From: a virus
Strand: one strand, 5' to 3'
Length of the DNA: 22,727 nt
IMG/VR virus record: IMGVR_UViG_3300036945_000156
Span: 1 to 22,727 of that record
How positions within the stretch are numbered: position 1 is the stretch's first letter; each line of letters starts with the position of its first letter. A model generated the notes under the pieces. That model made no database searches. It worked only from the letters and a program-made list of their open reading frames with translations, and had not been told where the DNA came from. This document shows positions 1 through 21,221 of this stretch, piece after piece. The translations under genes were made by a program, and so were the position numbers.

Positions 1-2548
1 TGTCCGTGTCTTCGATGAACGTGTCCGACTTGGCAGCGTTCCATGCCTGCGACAACATGGCGTCAAAGCTCTTGAGCTCCTGCACAACGTCTTTGGGCGT
101 AGACCCGGGCTTGGCGGCGACCGCCTGTGCAGCGTCCTTGACCAAACGTACTATCACCTCAACGTCCTTGGCGTTGCCACCCAGAACTTCACCCAGCACG
201 CGCAGAGCTTCGCGAGCCTCAGCAGCACGCATCTCGGCAGTGGATATAACAGCGTCAGCACGCTGCTTGGCAGCGGCGGCAGTGTCCTTGCCTTTGAGTG
301 GATCAGAGAACCGCTTGACGTTGCCGTACGCAGTCAGGTACGCCTTGTAAGACACAGCGAAGTTGCGGACAGCGTCAGCGATCTTGGTCGTCTTCTCGTC
401 GGCTTTCTTGCCGGGGTTCATGATGGCGTCGCGGATGGCCGTGAATGCCTGCTTGGTCATGGATGGGCGACCCTGCACTTTGCCAGCTGCGCCTTCGGCA
501 GATGCAGCAAGAGGGTTCTTACCCTTCAGCGGGGTAAGGCCAGCTTCTTCAATGATCGCATCTTCTTTGCCCGTGTCAGCCAAAGAAACACCCGCTGCGA
601 CCGGCGCAGCGGGTAAAGGCGCAGTTTGGGCTGCGCCAACCTCGGAGACACCACGGGCAACTGGTGCAGGGGAACTGGGCGTCACAGGCAAATCAAGCGA
701 CGGCAGCGATGTCAGGAGTTGTTGGGTAGGTGTGGGGGCAGGAGCCGCAGGGGCAGCTGGCTGGATGTCAGGGCCACGCAACGCAGTACGTTGGCCTTCG
801 GTGAGCGCCGCTGCGCCACCAGTCACAGGTGTTTGCTCTCCACGGATAGCGGTAGGCGCGTTTGGCCCAGCCAGTGCAGCTTGCTGCCCGGGGGTGAGCT
901 CGCCCGTCACAGGACTTGGGACTATGGGTGCTGGCTCAGGGAACGCTGGCCCAGTGCCACGGATTTCGTTCATCACCGACAGGGCTTCGTTCATCTGCCC
1001 ACGGAACTGGGCTTCGGGTGTGATGCCGAAGATGGGAGAGCCCTCAGTGCCGAAGAGTTCTGTCTGTGCTGGCTGAACTACAGGTGCTTCAGGAGCCTCT
1101 TCTGTGATTGAAGGGGTAGGCGGCACAACACGGTTGAACATGTCACGCTGCGGACTTGTGTCCATCAAGTTCAGCGGTGCGCCGCTGTCCAGCGCCTCTT
1201 GCGTCGCAGTCGACACGATGCGGTTTTCGAGGAACTGCAACTTCTGCTTGAACTCCTGCAGCTGCTGGTCAAATTGGGCATCGTCTGACGCACCACGCAT
1301 GACGTCCTGCACTCGGCGGGCTGCAGCAATACGCACGGATGAAGGCAAACTCAGGTCAGCCGCTGCCTGCTGGTCCGTCATGAAGTTGTCCATGAAGTTC
1401 TTGGCCTGTGCGTATTCGACATACGAAGTCACAGTGCTCATCGCACCGCCGCCAACAGCGCCCTTGAACGCGCCGATTAGATACTCGTTGAGAGCATCGT
1501 CACTCGTCATGGACTTGTACGCGCCAAAGCGCTCAATCGCAGACTGCGGAACTTCTGTCAGTGGGCCTTCAATGGCTGCGCCTCGTAACGCGCCAGTAGC
1601 GATCGAGCGGCCTGCGCCCTGCCCCAACAAGTCACGGGCTGCAACAGCGCCAACCTTGCGAGTCGCCATGCGAGCAATCGCTGCTTCTGGGCCAAGGGCT
1701 GTGTCGAGTGCTGCTGCGCCAGCGGCTGCGCCAGCTGCGCGGGTTTTGTCCTCGATGCCTTGCTCACGTTGCTCCCTACGGATGGAACCGTAAGACTCCA
1801 GCAAATTGGGCAAGAACACGCCAGCGCCGCCAAGAATAGCACCCAACGGGATGGACAGGCCACCAGTTAACGGTGCAAGAGCAGTGCCTAGCTTGGCTCC
1901 CGCAGTTGCGCCTGCTACAGCTTTGGCAAAATCTACAGACGCCTCACCAAGAGCTTCGCCAGCGGCTGTCATGGGCTTGGACAATATGTCGCCAGCGGTT
2001 TGAATCTGGCTAGGATTGCGTGCTGCAACATCAGCGCCATACTGCTCAAGAGCTTGTGCACCGGGCAGACCTACGTCACGGGCAGCAGAACCAACGCCGG
2101 ACAGGAATTGGCCAGAGCGGCGAGATGCGTCAGACAACAGGCCTTGGCTCTCGAAATCGCGCTGCAGGCGTTGTTTAACCTGTGAACTTGCAACAGGCAC
2201 AAACCCAGCTGGAAGCTGTTGATTGTCAGTGTCGAGCAAGGCTGCGTTGGCACGGCCTTCGTTCAGATCGAGCTTGAACGTCTTGCCGCCGCTGAACAGG
2301 TCATTGGTCTCGGGGTTGTAACCAACCACAGGCTCTCGCTGTGGACGCTGCGCTTGCAAATCGGCAGTCATGGTAGCTGTGCGGGCCTTCATCTGGCCAA
2401 GCAGTGCATCAGCAGTAGCGTTAGAGCCACCCGGGGCAAAGGTGCCTCCAATGGCTTCGGGCTTTGGCAGCCCTACGGCGGTAGTTGCGGCAACGCCGCC
2501 AAGCACGGATTCGTTCGCTTGCGCGTCGTAGTCGAAGAGGTTCTTCAT
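1..2548 (-). CDS. Very large internal virion / polyvalent-type protein, 3' end beyond the left edge
   Basis: I translated an uninterrupted frame of 849 codons from the ATG at 2548 to the left edge; no stop is reached, so the protein is longer than seen. Residues 140-380 are Gly/Ala-rich with hydrophobic stretches near 207-250 and 272-283 and a segment around 318-373 containing GAAIEGPLTEVPQSAIERFG. Similar Ala/Gly segments with an 'EGxxTExxQ' core occur in giant polyvalent and internal virion proteins of podoviruses. Residues about 480-660 are a Pro/Ala linker with an imperfect repeat (TPGQQAALAGP at 552, TEGQRTALRGP at 583), followed by a helical charged region. It is the last gene seen in the structural operon, after the P5-like protein, where ejection proteins usually lie. 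An ejected, membrane-active role is inference. No catalytic motif is visible in this part; an enzymatic domain could lie beyond the edge. Confidence 0.8.
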   Translation of the reverse strand, partial: MKNLFDYDAQANESVLGGVAATTAVGLPKPEAIGGTFAPGGSNATADALLGQMKARTATMTADLQAQRPQREPVVGYNPETNDLFSGGKTFKLDLNEGRANAALLDTDNQQLPAGFVPVASSQVKQRLQRDFESQGLLSDASRRSGQFLSGVGSAARDVGLPGAQALEQYGADVAARNPSQIQTAGDILSKPMTAAGEALGEASVDFAKAVAGATAGAKLGTALAPLTGGLSIPLGAILGGAGVFLPNLLESYGSIRREQREQGIEDKTRAAGAAAGAAALDTALGPEAAIARMATRKVGAVAARDLLGQGAGRSIATGALRGAAIEGPLTEVPQSAIERFGAYKSMTSDDALNEYLIGAFKGAVGGGAMSTVTSYVEYAQAKNFMDNFMTDQQAAADLSLPSSVRIAAARRVQDVMRGASDDAQFDQQLQEFKQKLQFLENRIVSTATQEALDSGAPLNLMDTSPQRDMFNRVVPPTPSITEEAPEAPVVQPAQTELFGTEGSPIFGITPEAQFRGQMNEALSVMNEIRGTGPAFPEPAPIVPSPVTGELTPGQQAALAGPNAPTAIRGEQTPVTGGAAALTEGQRTALRGPDIQPAAPAAPAPTPTQQLLTSLPSLDLPVTPSSPAPVARGVSEVGAAQTAPLPAAPVAAGVSLADTGKEDAIIEEAGLTPLKGKNPLAASAEGAAGKVQGRPSMTKQAFTAIRDAIMNPGKKADEKTTKIADAVRNFAVSYKAYLTAYGNVKRFSDPLKGKDTAAAAKQRADAVISTAEMRAAEAREALRVLGEVLGGNAKDVEVIVRLVKDAAQAVAAKPGSTPKDVVQELKSFDAMLSQAWNAAKSDTFIEDTD

Positions 2549-2551
2549 TGG

Positions 2552-2575
2552 TAGCCCCAGAGTGATCTGGGGCTA
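2552..2575 (-). promoter_or_regulatory. Perfect 10-bp stem, 4-nt loop hairpin just before the giant-protein start
   Basis: TAGCCCCAGA and TCTGGGGCTA are exact inverted repeats around a 4-base loop. The element fills much of the 45-base gap between two genes. On the minus strand it ends three bases before the ATG at 2548, and the only Shine-Dalgarno-like bases (GGGG) are in its 3' arm. No T-run follows on the minus strand, so it is a poor intrinsic terminator. It could hide the ribosome site, act as an RNA processing or stability element, or partly attenuate transcription. The inverted repeat is certain; the role is inferred. Confidence 0.7.
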
Positions 2576-2593
2576 TTCTATCGCGCTGTTAGC

Positions 2594-4336
2594 TTATTGG
2601 ATAGGCTGCAAACGAGGCTGTGACATCATGCCGCCGCCCAAGTCTTGGGCTGGCTGGAGCATCGCAATCTGGCCATTCTTCATGGTCACGAGCACTTGCT
2701 CTTTGCCGAGCCCACCAACGGTGTCAATCTTGGCCACATCATTGGCAGACAGCTGGCGGTCAAAGAGCGCTTTCTGTAAGTCTTTTTCTGCCATGGCGTT
2801 GACTTCGCGCAGCTTGTTGAGCCCCTTAACTTGCTCGACAGCGATCTCACCTTGCACCTTGAGCATGGCTTCGCGGCGAGCCTGCTCGGCCTTGGCAGCG
2901 GCACCAGACGCAACGGCGTAGAGTTGGTTGACGAACGTGTTGAGTGGCATGGGCTGCGAAACAGCCTTGTACTGGCTGGTGGCTGGGTCGAGGGCTACCT
3001 CGACAAAACCCTGCGGAGTCTGGGCGTACTGCACCCGAGCGGCTGTTGCCAGCTGCGACAGGGCTTGCTGATTGCCACCGATGGCTTGCGCCGAGGCGTC
3101 CACGAGCTGAGCAGAGAAACCACCAAAGCGGACCTTGTTGGCTTCCTCGCGGATTTTGCTGGCGACCTCGGCAGTAGGGGCCAAGGGCAACATGCGGTTG
3201 AGTTCTTGCAGGCGCAACTGAGCCATGCGAGATTCCTGCTGCGCACGGGCCGACAACTGCGTAACTTGTTCTGGGGTGAACTCTACAACAGGAATGGCGG
3301 GAGCGGCAGGGGCAGCAGGAGCGGCGGCCTGTGTGGGGGCAGCAGGGGCCACAGCTTGTGGTGCAGCGCCTTGGCCGAGAGGTCCGATGCCATTCTCAAA
3401 CTTAAACTTGGCTGCGGCAATGCGCTGCAAGACTTGGGGGTCTTGCATGTTGAGTGGGACGTTGGGGGCTACACCGAGTTGTTTCGCCACGAAGTTGACG
3501 TAGCTGGCAGTGCCAGCTGGGGTGTTGCCCGGAGCGTTAGCTGGAGACCACTTGCCCACGATCTGCTCAACAGTGTTCAACCCTTGCTGGCCGTATGACG
3601 ACAATAGGCCAATCGCAGCACGATCACCAGTAGCCATGTCGGGGAAGATCGCAAAGCCTTTGTCATCCACGCCAGTTGCGCCCATGCGGGTAGCGAAAGG
3701 ACTGGCGATGATGTTTCCACGATTGTTGTTGCGATAACCGCGAGGAGCGTCGGCTGCCGCAGCGGCTTGTTGTGGCGCTGCGGCAGGAGCTGGTGTACCG
3801 GCGTTGAGACGCTGGAGTTCCGCGAGGCGCTGAGCCTCTGTCGTGGGGGCAGTAGCCGTAGCAGCCTGTGGGTTGGCAAAACGCTGCATGCGTGCATCAC
3901 GCAAAGCCGCCATATTCTGGGGGCCAGTCATACCAGCAGGAGGTGTGTAGCCTGCTACGTTTTGGTAGGGGGCAGTGCCCGGAGTACCAGCACGAGCCAG
4001 ACGAGCCGTCTCAGCAGCCGACTGGTTGGGTGCACTTGGTTGCATGAACGCAGATGGGCCAGCGACAGGTGCAGCGGGGGCGGCGGGGGCAGCTTGCGCA
4101 GGAGACGGAAATGCAGGAGCCATAACACCGGGTGTTCCACCGGGCAACGCCTCTGGACCCTCTACGGGCTGCAACAAGCCTTGGCGAAACTGCTCTTGGC
4201 GAACAGACAGCGCATCTGCGGCCCGCATACGCTCCAGCTCACGAACTTGCTTTTCTGCAGCGCGTTCTTCGTCTGCGAACTGACGGCCAGCAGTCTGGGC
4301 AGCACTCATGCCACCGATCAAAGATTGGATGTTCAT
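2594..4336 (-). CDS. Virion protein with 'structural protein P5'-like domain
   Basis: The 580-aa product starts at the ATG whose first bases overlap the previous stop (ATGA). Residues 1-60 are a charged, probably helical segment. Residues 70-200 are a Pro/Ala-rich linker. Residues about 200-318 form a compact domain beginning GYRNNNRGNIIASPF and containing GFAIFPD, KWSPANAP and TASYVNFVAKQLGV. That pattern is the one commonly annotated as 'structural protein P5' in phages and is lysozyme-like in suggested role. A second Pro/Ala linker (320-350) leads to a helical C-terminus rich in Gln and Arg. Linkers on both sides of one domain suit a protein threaded through the tail. Peptidoglycan cleavage during DNA entry is inference; I did not identify a catalytic residue with certainty. 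Confidence 0.8.
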   Translation of the reverse strand: MNIQSLIGGMSAAQTAGRQFADEERAAEKQVRELERMRAADALSVRQEQFRQGLLQPVEGPEALPGGTPGVMAPAFPSPAQAAPAAPAAPVAGPSAFMQPSAPNQSAAETARLARAGTPGTAPYQNVAGYTPPAGMTGPQNMAALRDARMQRFANPQAATATAPTTEAQRLAELQRLNAGTPAPAAAPQQAAAAADAPRGYRNNNRGNIIASPFATRMGATGVDDKGFAIFPDMATGDRAAIGLLSSYGQQGLNTVEQIVGKWSPANAPGNTPAGTASYVNFVAKQLGVAPNVPLNMQDPQVLQRIAAAKFKFENGIGPLGQGAAPQAVAPAAPTQAAAPAAPAAPAIPVVEFTPEQVTQLSARAQQESRMAQLRLQELNRMLPLAPTAEVASKIREEANKVRFGGFSAQLVDASAQAIGGNQQALSQLATAARVQYAQTPQGFVEVALDPATSQYKAVSQPMPLNTFVNQLYAVASGAAAKAEQARREAMLKVQGEIAVEQVKGLNKLREVNAMAEKDLQKALFDRQLSANDVAKIDTVGGLGKEQVLVTMKNGQIAMLQPAQDLGGGMMSQPRLQPIQ

Positions 4337-7074: not shown

Positions 7075-7422
7075 TTATTTCCTTACGTTCTGCAAGAGCG
7101 CATTGAGCGCGTTCTGGATGTTTGCTACGTCAACAGCAAGCTGCTGCATGTCGTTGAGTAATTTTATATAGTCGCTGCGTGCAGGTACATCAATACTTCC
7201 TCCACCAGTGGAAATTGTGAAGTAGTCTCCTCGCGCAGACAGTTGCTTCATAATCTGCCGTTCTGCAGGTTCGACGCTGACAGAGTCATTCGTAACTACG
7301 CGCCCGGGGCCACGCTGTCCCAGCATGATCTCGATGTTTTCTTTCATCGCAGCAAGAACGTCGTACTGCCACTGCGGAATCTGCTCCGAAGGAATTGCAG
7401 GGATACCTTGGAACTTAGGCAT
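7075..7422 (-). CDS. Conserved phage virion-operon protein, 115 aa
   Basis: The start is the ATG at 7422, which overlaps the stop of the hub-like gene as TGATG and has GAGG six bases upstream; an in-frame TTG one codon earlier is less likely. The N-terminus (MPKFQGIPAIPSEQIPQWQY) is followed by a helical ENIEIMLGQRG segment, a short beta-like middle and a C-terminal helix with regular hydrophobic spacing that may form a coiled coil. Small proteins of this kind commonly sit between hub and internal virion genes in podovirus-like genomes, which suggests a minor tail or assembly component. I cannot assign a function. Confidence 0.75.
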   Translation of the reverse strand: MPKFQGIPAIPSEQIPQWQYDVLAAMKENIEIMLGQRGPGRVVTNDSVSVEPAERQIMKQLSARGDYFTISTGGGSIDVPARSDYIKLLNDMQQLAVDVANIQNALNALLQNVRK

Positions 7423-9455
7423 CAAGCACCTCGCAGACCAGACATGGTCTCAGCCAAGTGGACAGCGCGAACCCGCACGTTGGTAGCGATACGGAACTCG
7501 AACGTGTCTGAACGGTAGCCAGCGGGAAGTCGGAACGCGTCGTCGTTTTCGCGAGATGCGGTGTATACCAACTTCTTGTTGACAAAAAACTGAAACGTAG
7601 CTGCTCGGTAACTTTGCTTGAACGGTGACAAATTGCTACCAGCAACAACGTGCTGGTTTACAAGCGCTGTACCCAACGCCCCAAAGCCGTCTAGCCCAGA
7701 GTCAATAATTGCTTGGTTTGCTGCCAAGATAGCAGCGTTTTCTGTGATAAGAGCAGCTTCGTCTTCGTCGCTGATGTAGTCCGCAATGACTCGCGCCGCG
7801 CCCATGTTGATGGGCTGCTTGGTCGTGAACACCTTGGACTTCCAGTCAAGACTTGCGTTGCCGATGTTTGGTGAGTTCCACAAGTACACAACGCCATCAT
7901 GGGCGTAGTAGAACTGATCAGTCTTGGCTTCGTAGTATGCAGCCGAGAAGATAATGTCCGTCTGCACCAGATGCCCGCCGACCTGCTCATTGCGCTCAAA
8001 CAAGAACGTGTGCGTGTTGTCAGAGCCAAAATATCGGCCACGGTAGTATGCGCCGTAGATCAGTGAAGGTGTGACAGCGGCAGACCATGTAGACCAACTA
8101 TGGACGTTCTTCGTAAGGTAGTCTGTGCCAATCGTTGTCGAGTACACAGCCAAGCCGCCAGCAGATGCCCACACCACGCCAAAACCGATGTTGATGATGG
8201 ACCGCTTGGACACACAGGGCAGGATGTAGTCTGTACGGGCACGGGAGATGGCCTCTGGGTTGTTACCGTCAAACTTCCATGGAGTCCGGTCAGTCAAAGC
8301 CAACAGGGTGGTGCCATACGCGCCAAGCCCGATAATCTGGGCATCGACTTGTTGGCGGTACTTGATGGGCCATGCGTGGGGATGCCCGGGTTCTGAGAAG
8401 CAAACAGTGTTCCCAAAAAAGCCGACCATCATGCCGTTGTGGATGGCCAACAAGCCCTGCATCGTTGGCTCTGGGGCGTCGTAGTCCTCAGACTCCAGCA
8501 CTGCATCCAGTGAAGACACATCTATGTCGTCCACGAAGCTCGTGGTACCGAGGTCCACTTCGCCAACGCGCAGATACACAGCCCCCGAAACAGTAGCCAC
8601 GGTGCGGTAGATTCGCACCTTCATGCCAGTCGTCTGATACCCAGCCCCATGGCTCCACGAGGCAGGTAAGCCTGAGACAGTGACGGTCTGACCTTCTTTT
8701 ACAAAGATGGTAGCAGAAGGCTCTGATGGCACGGACTCCTCGTCCCATGCCGTAAAGTACGTGAAAACGTAGTTGCGAGGCCCAGTAACGCCTGCGAGGT
8801 CAACACGACCTGCGGTGTCTGCTGTAGATGCCTCAGCTGCTCCAAAGTTAAAGTAGCTAAACGTAGTGCTGTTGATAACCGTGACCTGTACGTTGGTCAG
8901 GTTGTACCCAGTGCCGCCAAACGATGTTGTGGTAACAAAGTCACCTGTTGTCAGCCCGTGGGCAGCGCTTGTAACGATAGTGGCTGTGTTACCAGCATCA
9001 CGGGACCGCGTAACAGATGACTTTTGCGTAAACGCTGTTGCCGTGGCGACAGGGACAGCTGTAGGCAGCGGGAGACCAAGGATGTAACTCGCTGATGGGT
9101 ACTCTGTACCGCTAGTCGCTAAAGCGTAGTTAGTAGCTTTTGGTGCGCCGTCGCCTGTGAAATACACACGCTGTGTGGTATCGCCTTCAATCTGGGCCGT
9201 AGCAACATCAACGTCTGTGATCCAGTGCAACCACTTGTTATCGCCCGTTACAGGATCAACCAGTGGATATATTGTCTGCACCACCCCAGTTTTATCCAGC
9301 GTGTCGATTACCTCGGCCCGACGGTACGGCAACAAATCCCCAGACGACAAGTCGAGGTTGTACGCGTACTGGGCTACCGTATCCGGTAGCAGCTCAGGAC
9401 TGATCTTTGGCGCTTCACCAAAGAAACGCTGAATTTTTAGAGCGACACCGGCCAC
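7422..9455 (-). CDS. Tail hub / DNA-stabilization-like protein (P22 gp10 / T7 gp12 functional type)
   Basis: The 677-aa product starts at a GTG with GAGG eight bases upstream. The N-terminus (FFGEAPKISPELLP, then AQYAYNLDLSSGDLLPYRR) is the pattern seen in phage stabilization/nozzle-type proteins that close the tail. Residues about 159-218 look like an inserted small beta domain (AAHGLTTGDFV, later STTFSYFNF), and about 226-315 resemble a fibronectin-III-type beta sandwich. The remainder has repeated beta-strand stretches (for example HNGMMVGFFGNTVCFSEPG and GGLAVYSTTIG) that fit a beta-propeller. It would cap the portal and adaptor channel below the head. Family level is likely; the choice between P22 gp10-like and T7 gp12-like cannot be made by eye. 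Confidence 0.78.
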   Translation of the reverse strand: MAGVALKIQRFFGEAPKISPELLPDTVAQYAYNLDLSSGDLLPYRRAEVIDTLDKTGVVQTIYPLVDPVTGDNKWLHWITDVDVATAQIEGDTTQRVYFTGDGAPKATNYALATSGTEYPSASYILGLPLPTAVPVATATAFTQKSSVTRSRDAGNTATIVTSAAHGLTTGDFVTTTSFGGTGYNLTNVQVTVINSTTFSYFNFGAAEASTADTAGRVDLAGVTGPRNYVFTYFTAWDEESVPSEPSATIFVKEGQTVTVSGLPASWSHGAGYQTTGMKVRIYRTVATVSGAVYLRVGEVDLGTTSFVDDIDVSSLDAVLESEDYDAPEPTMQGLLAIHNGMMVGFFGNTVCFSEPGHPHAWPIKYRQQVDAQIIGLGAYGTTLLALTDRTPWKFDGNNPEAISRARTDYILPCVSKRSIINIGFGVVWASAGGLAVYSTTIGTDYLTKNVHSWSTWSAAVTPSLIYGAYYRGRYFGSDNTHTFLFERNEQVGGHLVQTDIIFSAAYYEAKTDQFYYAHDGVVYLWNSPNIGNASLDWKSKVFTTKQPINMGAARVIADYISDEDEAALITENAAILAANQAIIDSGLDGFGALGTALVNQHVVAGSNLSPFKQSYRAATFQFFVNKKLVYTASRENDDAFRLPAGYRSDTFEFRIATNVRVRAVHLAETMSGLRGA

Positions 9456-11549: not shown

Positions 11550-12028
11550 TTGGCACTCCTGCAATAGAAGTAAATCTCGATACCGACCCACATCAGGATG
11601 ACAAATACGACAACAGACAGCGTGACAGCGATCGCCAGCTCAAGGTTTTCCTTGCGCTTCTTGCGTGCTTGCTTGGCCGCATCTGCAGCCCTGCGGCGCT
11701 GGGCCTTGTCGTCTTGGTCCATCTGCTGACGGCGAGCGACGATCTTTTCCCAGATGTCCATGTTGTTCGGGAAAAACAACCCTTTGACTTGTTCCTCGAA
11801 GTTGCGTGCGTCAGCCAGCGCCAGCTCCAGCTCCACGGCCTTGCCCATGTTGGAGCCTTTGAAGCCACCCTTGTTGACTTCCTCCAACACCTGCACCGCA
11901 TCGGCCTTGGCGTCAAAGTATTTGCCCAGCACAGGGCCGAGGCTGCGCACGTCATCGACCGTCTTGACGGCTTTCTTGACGAGGTTAACCGCAGCACTGA
12001 CTGCTGCAAGGGCGGTTAGCGGGTCCAT
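11537..12028 (-). CDS. Tail-anchored MDPLT-type membrane protein of the lysis region
   Basis: The start is the ATG at 12028 (MDPLTALAAVSAAVNLVKKA); an earlier frame start at 12061 falls inside the neighbour. The 163-aa product has a hydrophobic N-terminal amphipathic helix, a middle with GPVLGKYFDAKADA and FEEQVKGLFFPNNMDIWEKIV, a highly basic helix (about 105-128, rich in Arg, Lys and Ala) and one C-terminal membrane helix (about 131-150). This fits a cytoplasmic protein anchored by its C-terminus. Similar proteins sit beside the lipoprotein and holin-like genes in environmental podoviruses. A role in lysis or membrane association is inferred only. The next gene's start overlaps its end by 13 bases. 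Confidence 0.78.
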   Translation of the reverse strand: MDPLTALAAVSAAVNLVKKAVKTVDDVRSLGPVLGKYFDAKADAVQVLEEVNKGGFKGSNMGKAVELELALADARNFEEQVKGLFFPNNMDIWEKIVARRQQMDQDDKAQRRRAADAAKQARKKRKENLELAIAVTLSVVVFVILMWVGIEIYFYCRSAKCGS

Positions 12029-18378: not shown

Positions 18379-18635
18379 GGCAGATTACGAGAGGCATCTT
18401 CTTGGATACGCTCTTCCTCGACAACGACGACTTCTGTCTCTACGACAGGCTGAGGGTCCAGAGCCTTGACGCGACGTGCACGTGGTTTGGATTCAACAAC
18501 TTCTGCGGTAGCCTCTTCGACAACTTCCTCAACGACTTCCTCAACAACTTCTTCGAAGTCTTTTCGTTGGGCGTAGGCCGGTTGCCAAATGTACAAAGTA
18601 CCGGATGGGATGTGGCGTAGCATGCGGTCAGACAT
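18375..18635 (-). CDS. Small acidic-repeat phage protein, 86 aa
   Basis: I choose the ATG at 18635 because GGAG lies six bases upstream; the earlier ATG at 18647 has no ribosome site. The N-terminus (MSDRMLRHIPSGTLYIWQPA, then YAQRKDFEEV) is compact. Then comes a glutamate/valine tandem (EEVV repeated three times), EEATAEVVES, a basic KPRARRVKALD, and a second acidic Val/Glu stretch. The first 30 residues follow a 'RH-PTG-IY-W-x-LAxRxDMEEV' pattern I recall from small phage proteins near head genes. Acidic beyond that point, it may bind a basic partner or act as a head accessory protein; no function is established. Confidence 0.72.
   Translation of the reverse strand: MSDRMLRHIPSGTLYIWQPAYAQRKDFEEVVEEVVEEVVEEATAEVVESKPRARRVKALDPQPVVETEVVVVEEERIQEDASRNLP
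18513..18560 (-). repeat. Imperfect 12-bp tandem repeats in the acidic-repeat gene
   Basis: Four consecutive 12-base units (on the plus strand CTCTTCGACAAC, TTCCTCAACGAC, TTCCTCAACAAC, TTCTTCGAAGTC) encode the Glu-Glu-Val-Val repeats. The two middle units differ by one base. Slippage could readily change the copy number. Confidence 0.8.
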
Positions 18636-18654
18636 TGTGATCTCCATGTAAATA

Positions 18655-18674
18655 GGGGGAGCATAAGCTCCCCC
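18655..18674 (-). terminator. 8-bp GC-rich hairpin after the decoration-like gene, weak terminator
   Basis: GGGGGAGC and GCTCCCCC pair perfectly around a 4-base loop, 20 bases before the start of the 86-aa gene and 23 bases after the stop of the 151-aa gene. On the minus strand it is followed by TATTTAC, a weak U-rich end, so it could be a leaky terminator or a stability element that lowers expression of adaptor and tail genes relative to capsid genes. A TTGACG-N17-TATGCT promoter candidate (18660-18688) overlaps it. Confidence 0.6.
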
Positions 18675-18697
18675 CGATTCTACGTCAACCTAGCTGA

Positions 18698-19182: not shown

Positions 19183-19204
19183 CCCCCGGGTGTTACCCCG
19201 GGGG
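19183..19204 (-). terminator. 8-bp GC-only hairpin after the major capsid gene
   Basis: CCCCCGGG and CCCGGGGG pair perfectly around a 6-base loop, extended by one wobble pair, in the 57-base gap after the capsid stop. No U-tract follows on the minus strand (TCGCAAAC), so classical termination is unlikely; protection of the abundant coat mRNA or partial attenuation fits better. The inverted repeat is certain and the role is inferred. Confidence 0.5.
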
Positions 19205-19210
19205 AGTTCA

Positions 19211-20149
19211 TCAGCCTTGACGGACGTAGCCGACAGACAGAGCTTCAGGCTTCACAACCTTGTAGCCGTAGACTTGCAAGCCACGGATGATGTTGCCGAA
19301 GGTGGACTCAGCACGCAGGCTTTCCATCTCGGTCATCTGCGAAGCGAAAGTCAGGCCCATCTTGGTGCCAGCGACCACGTTGAAGCACTTGTTGCCACCG
19401 TCAACGACGCTGTTCAGGTTGTGCGACACGTACAGAGTGAAACGGTCGATCATGCCCAAACGGCCATTGCGCAGGATGGAAGTGGCGTCACCGCTCAGCG
19501 AGGCGTCCTTCAGGTCAGACTTCTTGATCAGACCAGCCATCCAAGCAGGGATCACCAAGAAGCGATCGCTGTCAGGGCAGTTAGCCTCGTCCAACACGGT
19601 ACCCATGTCAACGATGAACTCGGTAACAGACTTGGTGCTGGAAGCGCCGTCTTTGGTCAGAGCCAAAGCAGAGCCGGTAGCGCCCAAGTTGATGTTGCCA
19701 GAGATGCGACCAGCGGTTGCACCACGGTTCAAAGCAGAGATGTCGGGCAACATGCCGGTCAGGACGTTGTCGTCGATGCGGATTTTCATCTTCTCAGATG
19801 CGTCCTTCGACCATGTGTCCATCAGGTTGATGTCAGCCTGAACCTTGTCCACGTCGTCTTCGATCGCAGCGAAATATTCGCCTTGGTCGATCAACAGCTG
19901 GATTTTTGGTTTGTCAGGACGCTCGACAGTCAGCGTCATACCTTTTTGGTATGGGCGGATTGTCAACTCAGGAGAGGTGCGAATGTTCACGGTATCACCC
20001 ATGGACTTGATCTCACCTTCATAGTCGGTGTTCGAGATCGCGGCCAAGACGGTGGCGTCGTAAAAATTCTCGATCAGCTTAGCTGACCAGATTTCAGGGA
20101 TGAAATTGCCGCTGTAATTGGCGGCACCGGGGGCGACTGGATAGGTCAT
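19211..20149 (-). CDS. Major capsid protein, HK97-fold type
   Basis: The 312-aa product has GGAG six bases before its ATG. The N-terminal region IPEIWSAKLIENFYDATVLA, then NTDYEGEIKSMGDTVNIRTS and MTLTVERPDKPKIQLLIDQG, is the coat-protein pattern of many short-tailed and P22-type phages. Later elements include DKVQADINLMDTWSKDA, ANCPDSDRFLVIPAWMAGLI, GRLGMIDRFTLYVSHNLN, KMGLTFASQMTEMESLRAES and a C-terminal GLQVYGYKVVKPEALSVGYV. The length suits a coat subunit without a delta domain. It follows the scaffold gene by 25 bases, the usual order. The family is well supported by pattern, though not by a search. Confidence 0.9.
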   Translation of the reverse strand: MTYPVAPGAANYSGNFIPEIWSAKLIENFYDATVLAAISNTDYEGEIKSMGDTVNIRTSPELTIRPYQKGMTLTVERPDKPKIQLLIDQGEYFAAIEDDVDKVQADINLMDTWSKDASEKMKIRIDDNVLTGMLPDISALNRGATAGRISGNINLGATGSALALTKDGASSTKSVTEFIVDMGTVLDEANCPDSDRFLVIPAWMAGLIKKSDLKDASLSGDATSILRNGRLGMIDRFTLYVSHNLNSVVDGGNKCFNVVAGTKMGLTFASQMTEMESLRAESTFGNIIRGLQVYGYKVVKPEALSVGYVRQG

Positions 20150-20174: not shown

Positions 20175-21221
20175 TTAAGCTGCGCTCTGGACAACTCGTC
20201 CTTCGCGCTGGGCCAAAAAGATGTCGTTCTCCAACGTACGGGCTTCAGCCTCACGACCTTTGTAGCGACCATTCATCTTGTCAGCGTAGAACTGTGCAAT
20301 CTCTGAACGAGCCCACTGTTTCTTTGCTGTCGCTGCTGGAGGAGCCGAACCGGCGCTTGCGCGACCCGGTGCGATCTGACGCTCCAACTTCGAGACGTTA
20401 CTCGCTTGCTGGGGTGATGGGGTTGTGCTCGCAGCTGGGACGTTTGCAACGCCAGCCTCGCGCTTCCACTGCTCAAAAAAGTTCACAACACGTTCAAGGT
20501 TGAGGTTCGTATGCGCATCGGTCAGAAGAGTTTGACGCTGTAGGCCCGAGAGAGGGTCTTCAGACAACAGCCAATCGTGGAAACGAGGCTGCTCATTGAT
20601 CGTCTGCCAATCGGATACGCGCTTACCAAGCTGCTCATAGAATTTCTCGTGAGCTGTCTTGGCCTGATTGTCCGCAACTTGGCGAACAACAGGCACTACG
20701 CCTTGCAGCTGGTCGATACGGCTGATAAGCGTCTGCACAGCTTGGGCCAGAGGAGCCATCTCTTCGCGGGAAACACGGCGAGCGAACTCAACCATGTCGG
20801 AACCGTATTCTGAGACGTCTTTGTCTGTCACGTGGGCTGGGCGGCTGCTTTGCGCTGCGGGCTGGGGTGCAGCCTGCATCTGGGCGACCAATTGCTCCAT
20901 GTTGGCGAGACGTTGCGCGGTTTCATCCAAACTGCGTTTTTGCGCGTTGAATGTGCCTTGCAGCGAGCGCCAGCGTTGGGCGTAGGTAGGTCCGTTCTCA
21001 TCCTCGACCGAGGTGGCCGATGATTCAACAGGGGTTGCAACTGCAGTAGTGGTCGGCTCTACTCTGGTCTCAGTAGCTGGAGTCTCTGTGGGAGTCTCAA
21101 CTGCTACCGATTCGCTGGGTTCAGCTTCGCCTGCGGGCGTTTCGGCCTTTGGCGTGTACAGCTGGTCTGCGATGACTTTTGCGTCGTCGATCTGCTTCTG
21201 GAGTTGGGATGGTAATGCCAT
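20175..21221 (-). CDS. Capsid scaffolding protein
   Basis: The 348-aa product has AAGG six bases before its ATG. Residues 1-20 are helical. Residues 25-80 are a Glu/Thr/Pro-rich disordered stretch. About 80-200 is helical with coiled-coil potential (LDETAQRLANMEQLVAQMQA; AQAVQTLISRIDQLQG). The last 45 residues (KKQWARSEIAQFYADKMNGR, YKGREAEARTLENDI, FLAQREGRVV) are a positively charged helix-turn-helix, the typical coat-binding end of scaffolds. It lies directly before the coat gene. It would guide procapsid assembly and leave the head during packaging. No protease domain is seen. Confidence 0.87.
   Translation of the reverse strand: MALPSQLQKQIDDAKVIADQLYTPKAETPAGEAEPSESVAVETPTETPATETRVEPTTTAVATPVESSATSVEDENGPTYAQRWRSLQGTFNAQKRSLDETAQRLANMEQLVAQMQAAPQPAAQSSRPAHVTDKDVSEYGSDMVEFARRVSREEMAPLAQAVQTLISRIDQLQGVVPVVRQVADNQAKTAHEKFYEQLGKRVSDWQTINEQPRFHDWLLSEDPLSGLQRQTLLTDAHTNLNLERVVNFFEQWKREAGVANVPAASTTPSPQQASNVSKLERQIAPGRASAGSAPPAATAKKQWARSEIAQFYADKMNGRYKGREAEARTLENDIFLAQREGRVVQSAA

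Follow-up and report, generated by a model that had tools for sequence, protein, structure and literature searches.

A candidate promoter overlapping a hairpin that buries the ribosome site of a giant virion-region gene in an uncultured phage

The 45-nt gap before the giant gene of an uncultured phage contig may carry a promoter and an RNA lock built of overlapping bases, a control of the phage T4 gene e type that we hold at about even confidence. The window, the complete IMG/VR virus record G000 of 22,727 bases, carries all its recognisable genes on the minus strand. Profile matches, which may point to an epsilon15-like phage, included the major head protein (phrog_267; 19211-20149), an internal virion protein (phrog_511; 7422-9455), and a transglycosylase-like virion protein of 580 aa (2594..4336, minus strand; phrog_873, 4e-28); endolysin, spanin, and tail fibre families were also among the matches. 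The 580-aa gene ends at the gap, on the other side of which the giant gene (2..2548, minus strand) starts with an ATG at 2548 and runs off the contig end after 849 aa. In relatives, the full protein is 2073 aa (L003/G002) or 2017 aa (L002/G001) long. Neither Pfam nor PHROG matched it at E 0.001, and the phage records searched showed neither a match to this protein nor a DNA match to the window. In a distant homologue from L005 (4896-10676), the ART-PolyVal ADP-ribosyltransferase domain is matched below cutoff at residues 1714-1875, near the end of the 1927 aa seen.

Read on the minus strand from 2593 to 2549, the gap is GCTAACAGCGCGATAGAATAGCCCCAGATCACTCTGGGGCTACCA, followed by the ATG. Sequence, shuffles, and folds place in it a hairpin, TAGCCCCAGA/TCTGGGGCTA, with 10 perfect pairs and a TCAC loop (2552..2575, minus strand), and the bases CCA alone, 3 nt, separate its 3' end from the start codon. 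The sole Shine–Dalgarno-like bases of the giant gene, GGGG (2555..2558, minus strand), lie in the 3' arm and thus, by sequence and folds, inside a stable helix; the best anti-SD duplex 5' of the ATG (−4.7 kcal/mol) forms at the same four bases. The preliminary description had reported the perfect stem, its 4-base loop, the three-base spacing, and the location of GGGG within the stem, all of which we confirmed. Perfect stems of at least 10 bp with loops of 3–8 bases numbered two in the window, compared with a mean of 0.19 and a maximum of 3 in 100 dinucleotide shuffles; the second such stem is internal to the giant ORF. For the giant gene, opening the ribosome-binding site was predicted to cost about 22 kcal/mol (21.8), the highest of 23 genes tested (from 27 ORFs regarded as genes, 4 being omitted), the remaining 22 ranging from 3.2 to 15.0 kcal/mol.

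No U-tract follows the hairpin on the coding strand, as had been described before, none of the aligned leaders of the giant gene contains one, and a terminator scan of both strands listed nothing at the gap. An ordinary intrinsic terminator is thereby ruled out at this place. The scan's highest-ranked terminator-like site is within the giant ORF (590-614, minus strand, codons 646-653), where a 10-bp G+C-rich hairpin is followed by GTTTCTTTG; over the stem and the bases after it through TTTCTTTG, the window shares 32 of 33 bases with G002 and 33 of 33 with G001, and the stem is present in both.

The feature that the preliminary description had missed is the hexamer TAGAAT (2575..2580, minus strand), a proposed −10 box whose final T also opens the hairpin's 5' arm. 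With the usual sigma70 spacing, transcription starts 4–10 bases after the −10 box, and the predicted start is the A at 2568 (minus strand), the seventh base after TAGAAT. A mapped −10 consensus of TAnAAT with a weak −35 is described for Burkholderia cenocepacia (PMC4603805). The candidate −35 is weak: TATCCA (2598..2603, minus strand), 17 bp from TAGAAT and within the end of the upstream gene, scores no higher than 4 of 6, a level attained by 14% of random places, and a standard promoter scan did not list the site. At the same distance of 17 bases, the seven leaders (the window, G001, G002, G009, G014, G026, and G008) read TATCCA, TATTCA, TATCCA, TATCCA, TACACA, TAGTAA, and TAGATA, and in the first four of these the hexamer also codes for the end of the upstream protein. 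At some hairpin-free sites elsewhere, TAGAAT stands 16 bases after TAGACA (G003, G013, G020, and G021) or after TAGCAA (G014); a TAGACA-type −35 matching at 6 of 6 is reached by 0.1% of random places, a score that is partly circular as this form was derived from the same sites it scores, with look-alike contexts merged.

The overlap of box and stem has a predictable consequence for RNA folding. In the window, an RNA reading through from upstream was predicted to require 22.1 kcal/mol to open the ribosome site, and one starting 6 nt after TAGAAT 6.0 kcal/mol; corresponding values were 21.3 and 6.0 in G001, 19.9 and 6.1 in G002, 20.8 and 6.1 in G009, 17.1 and 7.9 in G014, and 13.8 and 2.3 in G026. 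The leader of the hairpin-free G008 showed no such fall (4.0 and 6.3 kcal/mol). In the window, a start anywhere from 4 to 10 bases past TAGAAT would leave a 5' arm too short for the stem, and the predicted cost of 22.1 kcal/mol drops to 5.8–9.1 kcal/mol. The read-through RNA would therefore be locked and the promoter RNA open. Long virion-operon mRNAs begun upstream would keep both arms, fold, and hardly yield giant protein; an RNA polymerase carrying a sigma70-type factor, possibly aided by a phage protein, would start at TAGAAT and, by beginning inside the 5' arm, would make an mRNA unable to form the stem, with GGGG and AUG exposed. As one message would be locked and the other open, the giant protein would come mainly from its own promoter, with a dose or timing separate from those of the upstream virion proteins. 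Both the use of the promoter and its effect on translation are what we infer from sequence at this gap.

A permanently closed site is a second way to read the high opening cost. A single long mRNA would be made, the hairpin would just keep translation of the giant gene low, and TAGAAT would not serve as a promoter, consistent with the cost topping all genes tested, the weak −35 of the window, and the silence of the promoter scan at the gap. We nevertheless consider such a static lock improbable, as a cost near 20 kcal/mol would nearly silence a gene lacking another start, and TAGAAT is retained in two hairpin-free relatives (G007 and G008), where a lock of this kind has no need of it.

Relatives with an alignable N-terminus of the giant protein were found in eight contigs (G001=L002, G002=L003, G009=L026, G014=L196, G026=L194, G027=L195, G007=L040, and G008=L041). 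All eight have TAGAAT 25–27 nt 5' of the ATG, and six have a hairpin at the gap, in three different pairings. The 10-bp stem of the window recurs in G001, G002, and G009; in G014, the first 19 bases equal those of the window and the 3' half is changed, giving an 8-bp outer stem, GAATAGCC/GGCTATTC; and in G026 and G027 a 14-pair stem with some G–U pairs joins TAGAAT itself to ATTCTA and extends as far as the A that begins the ATG. G007 and G008 keep TAGAAT and lack such a hairpin. Being identical at this gap to G026 and G008, respectively, G027 and G007 were omitted from the folds and the leader alignment, and G027 also from the stem-abutting count below. Neither TAGAAT nor a hairpin was found in the 12-nt gap of the distant homologues L004 and L005, matched at residues 136-362 (in L004 by reading), or in L012, which was reached via the upstream gene; among 19 transglycosylase relatives, the following gap was read in L006, L008, and L012, and L007 ends within the gene. 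Of 263 pattern matches in genome contigs, none could be confirmed as related to the giant N-terminus. An apparent wide spread of the hairpin's 5' half was rejected: the 15-mer TAGAATAGCCCCAGA occurs in 40 stretches of viral contigs, of which 4 come from the known gap (L025, L026, L027, and L152) and the other 36 read as unrelated sequence without the hairpin.

The presence of the hairpin in six of the eight contigs, together with the burial of the ribosome site, supports the structural control of translation suggested in the preliminary description, which had set RNA data for a normal terminator and a new promoter in the gap against it. A promoter candidate is present by sequence in all eight contigs, and structural control is not thereby removed: the promoter and the hairpin seem to form a single device. 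Among the window, G001, G002, and G009, the stretch of 32 bases running from TAGAAT to the ATG varies at 0–2 sites. Between the window and G002, 9 of the 17 bases before TAGAAT match, as do 43 of 80 third codon positions of unchanged residues, and the contrast with these surroundings argues that the TAGAAT–hairpin element is constrained.

Compensatory changes, the evidence proposed earlier for the stem, were not seen: in the leader alignment, outer pairs included, 0 of 15 pairs had changed on both sides. All pair changes across the seven leaders, six of them distinct, were one-sided (C–G → U–G and G–C → G–U). Column shuffles attained the observed pairing in 344 of 500 trials and in 312 of 500 with the outer pairs. 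Of all cells, 89.8% were paired, and after sliding the partners by one base the share was 38.3% or 54.5%, a drop that a structure drawn from one alignment row tends to give anyway. When the 3' side was shuffled 1000 times, an equally stable fold appeared 0 times for six of the seven leaders and in 66% of trials for the hairpin-free G008. As the leaders are related, these tests are not independent; on sequence grounds, we consider selection on the pairing at this gap likely.

The window shows no excess of TAGAAT (3 occurrences in total vs. 3.68 expected), and the 2 on the minus strand each lie at an intergenic hairpin. In 25 contigs with 520,953 bases, 16 of 62 TAGAAT abutted a perfect stem 8 bp or more in length, compared with 0.065% of all other hexamer occurrences. 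With look-alike contexts merged, 5 distinct stems remained in 42 distinct TAGAAT contexts (binomial P about 1e-10, a guide only since several contigs were picked for these very matches). Two other hexamers also had 5 distinct abutting stems: AAAGAA, but over 260 occurrences vs. 62 for TAGAAT, and AGAATA, which overlaps TAGAAT, over 111. Among relatives of the head protein, numbering at least 80, 48 were scanned over at most 1,300 bases each, and 9 of the 48 had TAGAAT beside a hairpin.

The other intergenic pair in the window lies in the gap 18648-18697, where a hairpin with 8 perfect pairs and a TTAT loop (18655..18674, minus strand) begins 2 bases after TAGAAT (18677..18682, minus strand). 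The proteins encoded after this gap match each other in all pairs by blastp (E 1e-4 or better in the seven-sequence set) in the window, G003, G013, G014, G016, G020, and G026, and all seven contigs have TAGAAT with a hairpin 0–3 bases later (G026 read by eye). The stems have five different sequences, with clear T-runs, i.e. a normal terminator, in two (G016 and G026). As the pairing here survives complete sequence change, the second gap gives stronger structural evidence than the giant-gene gap. The −35 scores are 1–3 of 6 in the four contigs scored, and the A-rich bases may partner the U-tract instead of being a promoter. The 90-aa ORF next to the gap was called from 18647; a start at 18635 is more likely because GGAG stands 6 nt before the second ATG (18635-18647).

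Hairpins without TAGAAT also follow genes of the head region. One, CCCCCGGG...CCCGGGGG (19183-19204), comes directly after the major head protein gene and has counterparts behind the head gene of L044, L045, L046, and L047, the L047 copy differing by one base. Many of the gaps that follow the head gene and its neighbour in the relatives L055-L091 have GGGGCTTCGGCCCC-type hairpins shortly before an AGGAG-like site, again with no TAGAAT.

TAGAAT also stands 13–17 bases before complete terminators with a T-run in G001 (near 20711, minus strand), G002 (near 11798, minus strand), and G014 (near 8200, plus strand). These sites are just past a gene end, in G001 and G002 right after the stop codon, and between them TAGAAT is kept and the bases separating it from the hairpin differ. 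They are outside what the switch model explains. Together with the TAGAAT-adjoining hairpins and T-runs of the second gap, located before homologous genes, they are in line with a transcription insulator, in which the hairpin mainly stops upstream transcription or shields the 3' end of the upstream mRNA, the promoter restarts transcription, and the ribosome site is hidden as a by-product of tight packing. For the giant gene we find this unlikely, as every aligned leader is devoid of a U-tract and the terminator scan was silent there.

Two further readings are very unlikely. A repressor could bind the dyad over the promoter start, the element then acting as DNA: the palindrome is perfect and overlaps the proposed promoter, and the loop is almost constant in the window, G001, G002, and G009. 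The dyad of G026, however, relies on G–U pairs, which are meaningless in DNA, and the second dyad of the window differs in sequence, which rules out an operator common to both; we regard a DNA operator as highly improbable. Equally doubtful is a processing site, e.g. for RNase III, that separates the giant-gene mRNA from the virion operon. An intergenic hairpin without a U-tract within that operon is what such a site might look like, but ten pairs are short for RNase III and the conservation of TAGAAT would be left unexplained. The Rfam 15 covariance models gave 0 matches at gathering score within the window, which also rules out a described RNA family, and nothing was found in support of the RNA processing mentioned in the preliminary description.

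The closest known systems are in phage T4. Long early transcripts of e, soc, 49, and I-TevI form an inhibitory structure, and transcripts from late promoters directly upstream lack its 5' portion and are translated well (PMC3014915, PMC2988022); a hairpin sequestering the ribosome site with a proximal late promoter is likewise described for segB and for mobE of phage Aeh1. As in the T4 e group so described, the ribosome site of the window lies in the 3' part of the stem and a candidate promoter directly upstream overlaps the DNA of the 5' part, which the short RNA would lose. The leader is not homologous in sequence to that group, and instead of the T4 late promoter TATAAATA, as given in PMC3014915, the box reads TAGAATAG with a −10 of TAGAAT. 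The targets differ too: lysozyme and homing endonuclease genes in T4, and here a giant gene ending the virion gene run. The resemblance of the arrangement to T4 gene e control is clear; that it acts in the same way we infer. A type of switch already known from T4 would thus be found in a different virus group, with a promoter that is likely on its sequence.

The hairpin also resembles intrinsic terminators in being short, G+C-rich, and intergenic, and true U-tracts occur in some second-gap relatives; unlike Rho-independent terminators, that of the giant gene has none. Among named phages, tblastn weakly matched the transglycosylase domain to epsilon15 gp15, over 18% of the query. In epsilon15 (Uetakevirus), as in the window, the weakly similar transglycosylase gene is followed by large genes of unknown function (gp15 to gp17). 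Unlike in the window, gp16 directly adjoins gp15, the 60 nt before it contain no TAGAAT, the hairpin is absent, and opening the gp16 ribosome site costs 7.4 kcal/mol. A literature search, mostly without subscription journals, did not show the arrangement reported for epsilon15-like phages among the matches listed.

Against the proposed switch count the lack of two-sided pair changes, the column-shuffle outcome, the weak −35, the promoter scan, and the ordinary abundance of TAGAAT, as well as the relatives with TAGAAT and no hairpin (G007 and G008) or with neither (L004, L005, and L012). More tentatively, at somewhat less than even confidence, the two gaps may be instances of a single module used repeatedly, in which a −10 box is joined to the 5' arm of a hairpin that only RNA from upstream could fold. 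At the giant gene, whose ribosome site is part of the 3' arm, it would be a translation lock; at the second gap, followed by a U-tract, it would be a terminator escaped by its own promoter. Such a module would write promoter and insulator in the same ~30 bases. If the proposed switch is real, the overlap of TAGAAT with a hairpin would be a simple rule for finding hairpin-escaping promoters in uncultured phages, and the T4 gene e switch would have a counterpart in another phage group, placed on a virion-region giant gene and working without a T4 late promoter.
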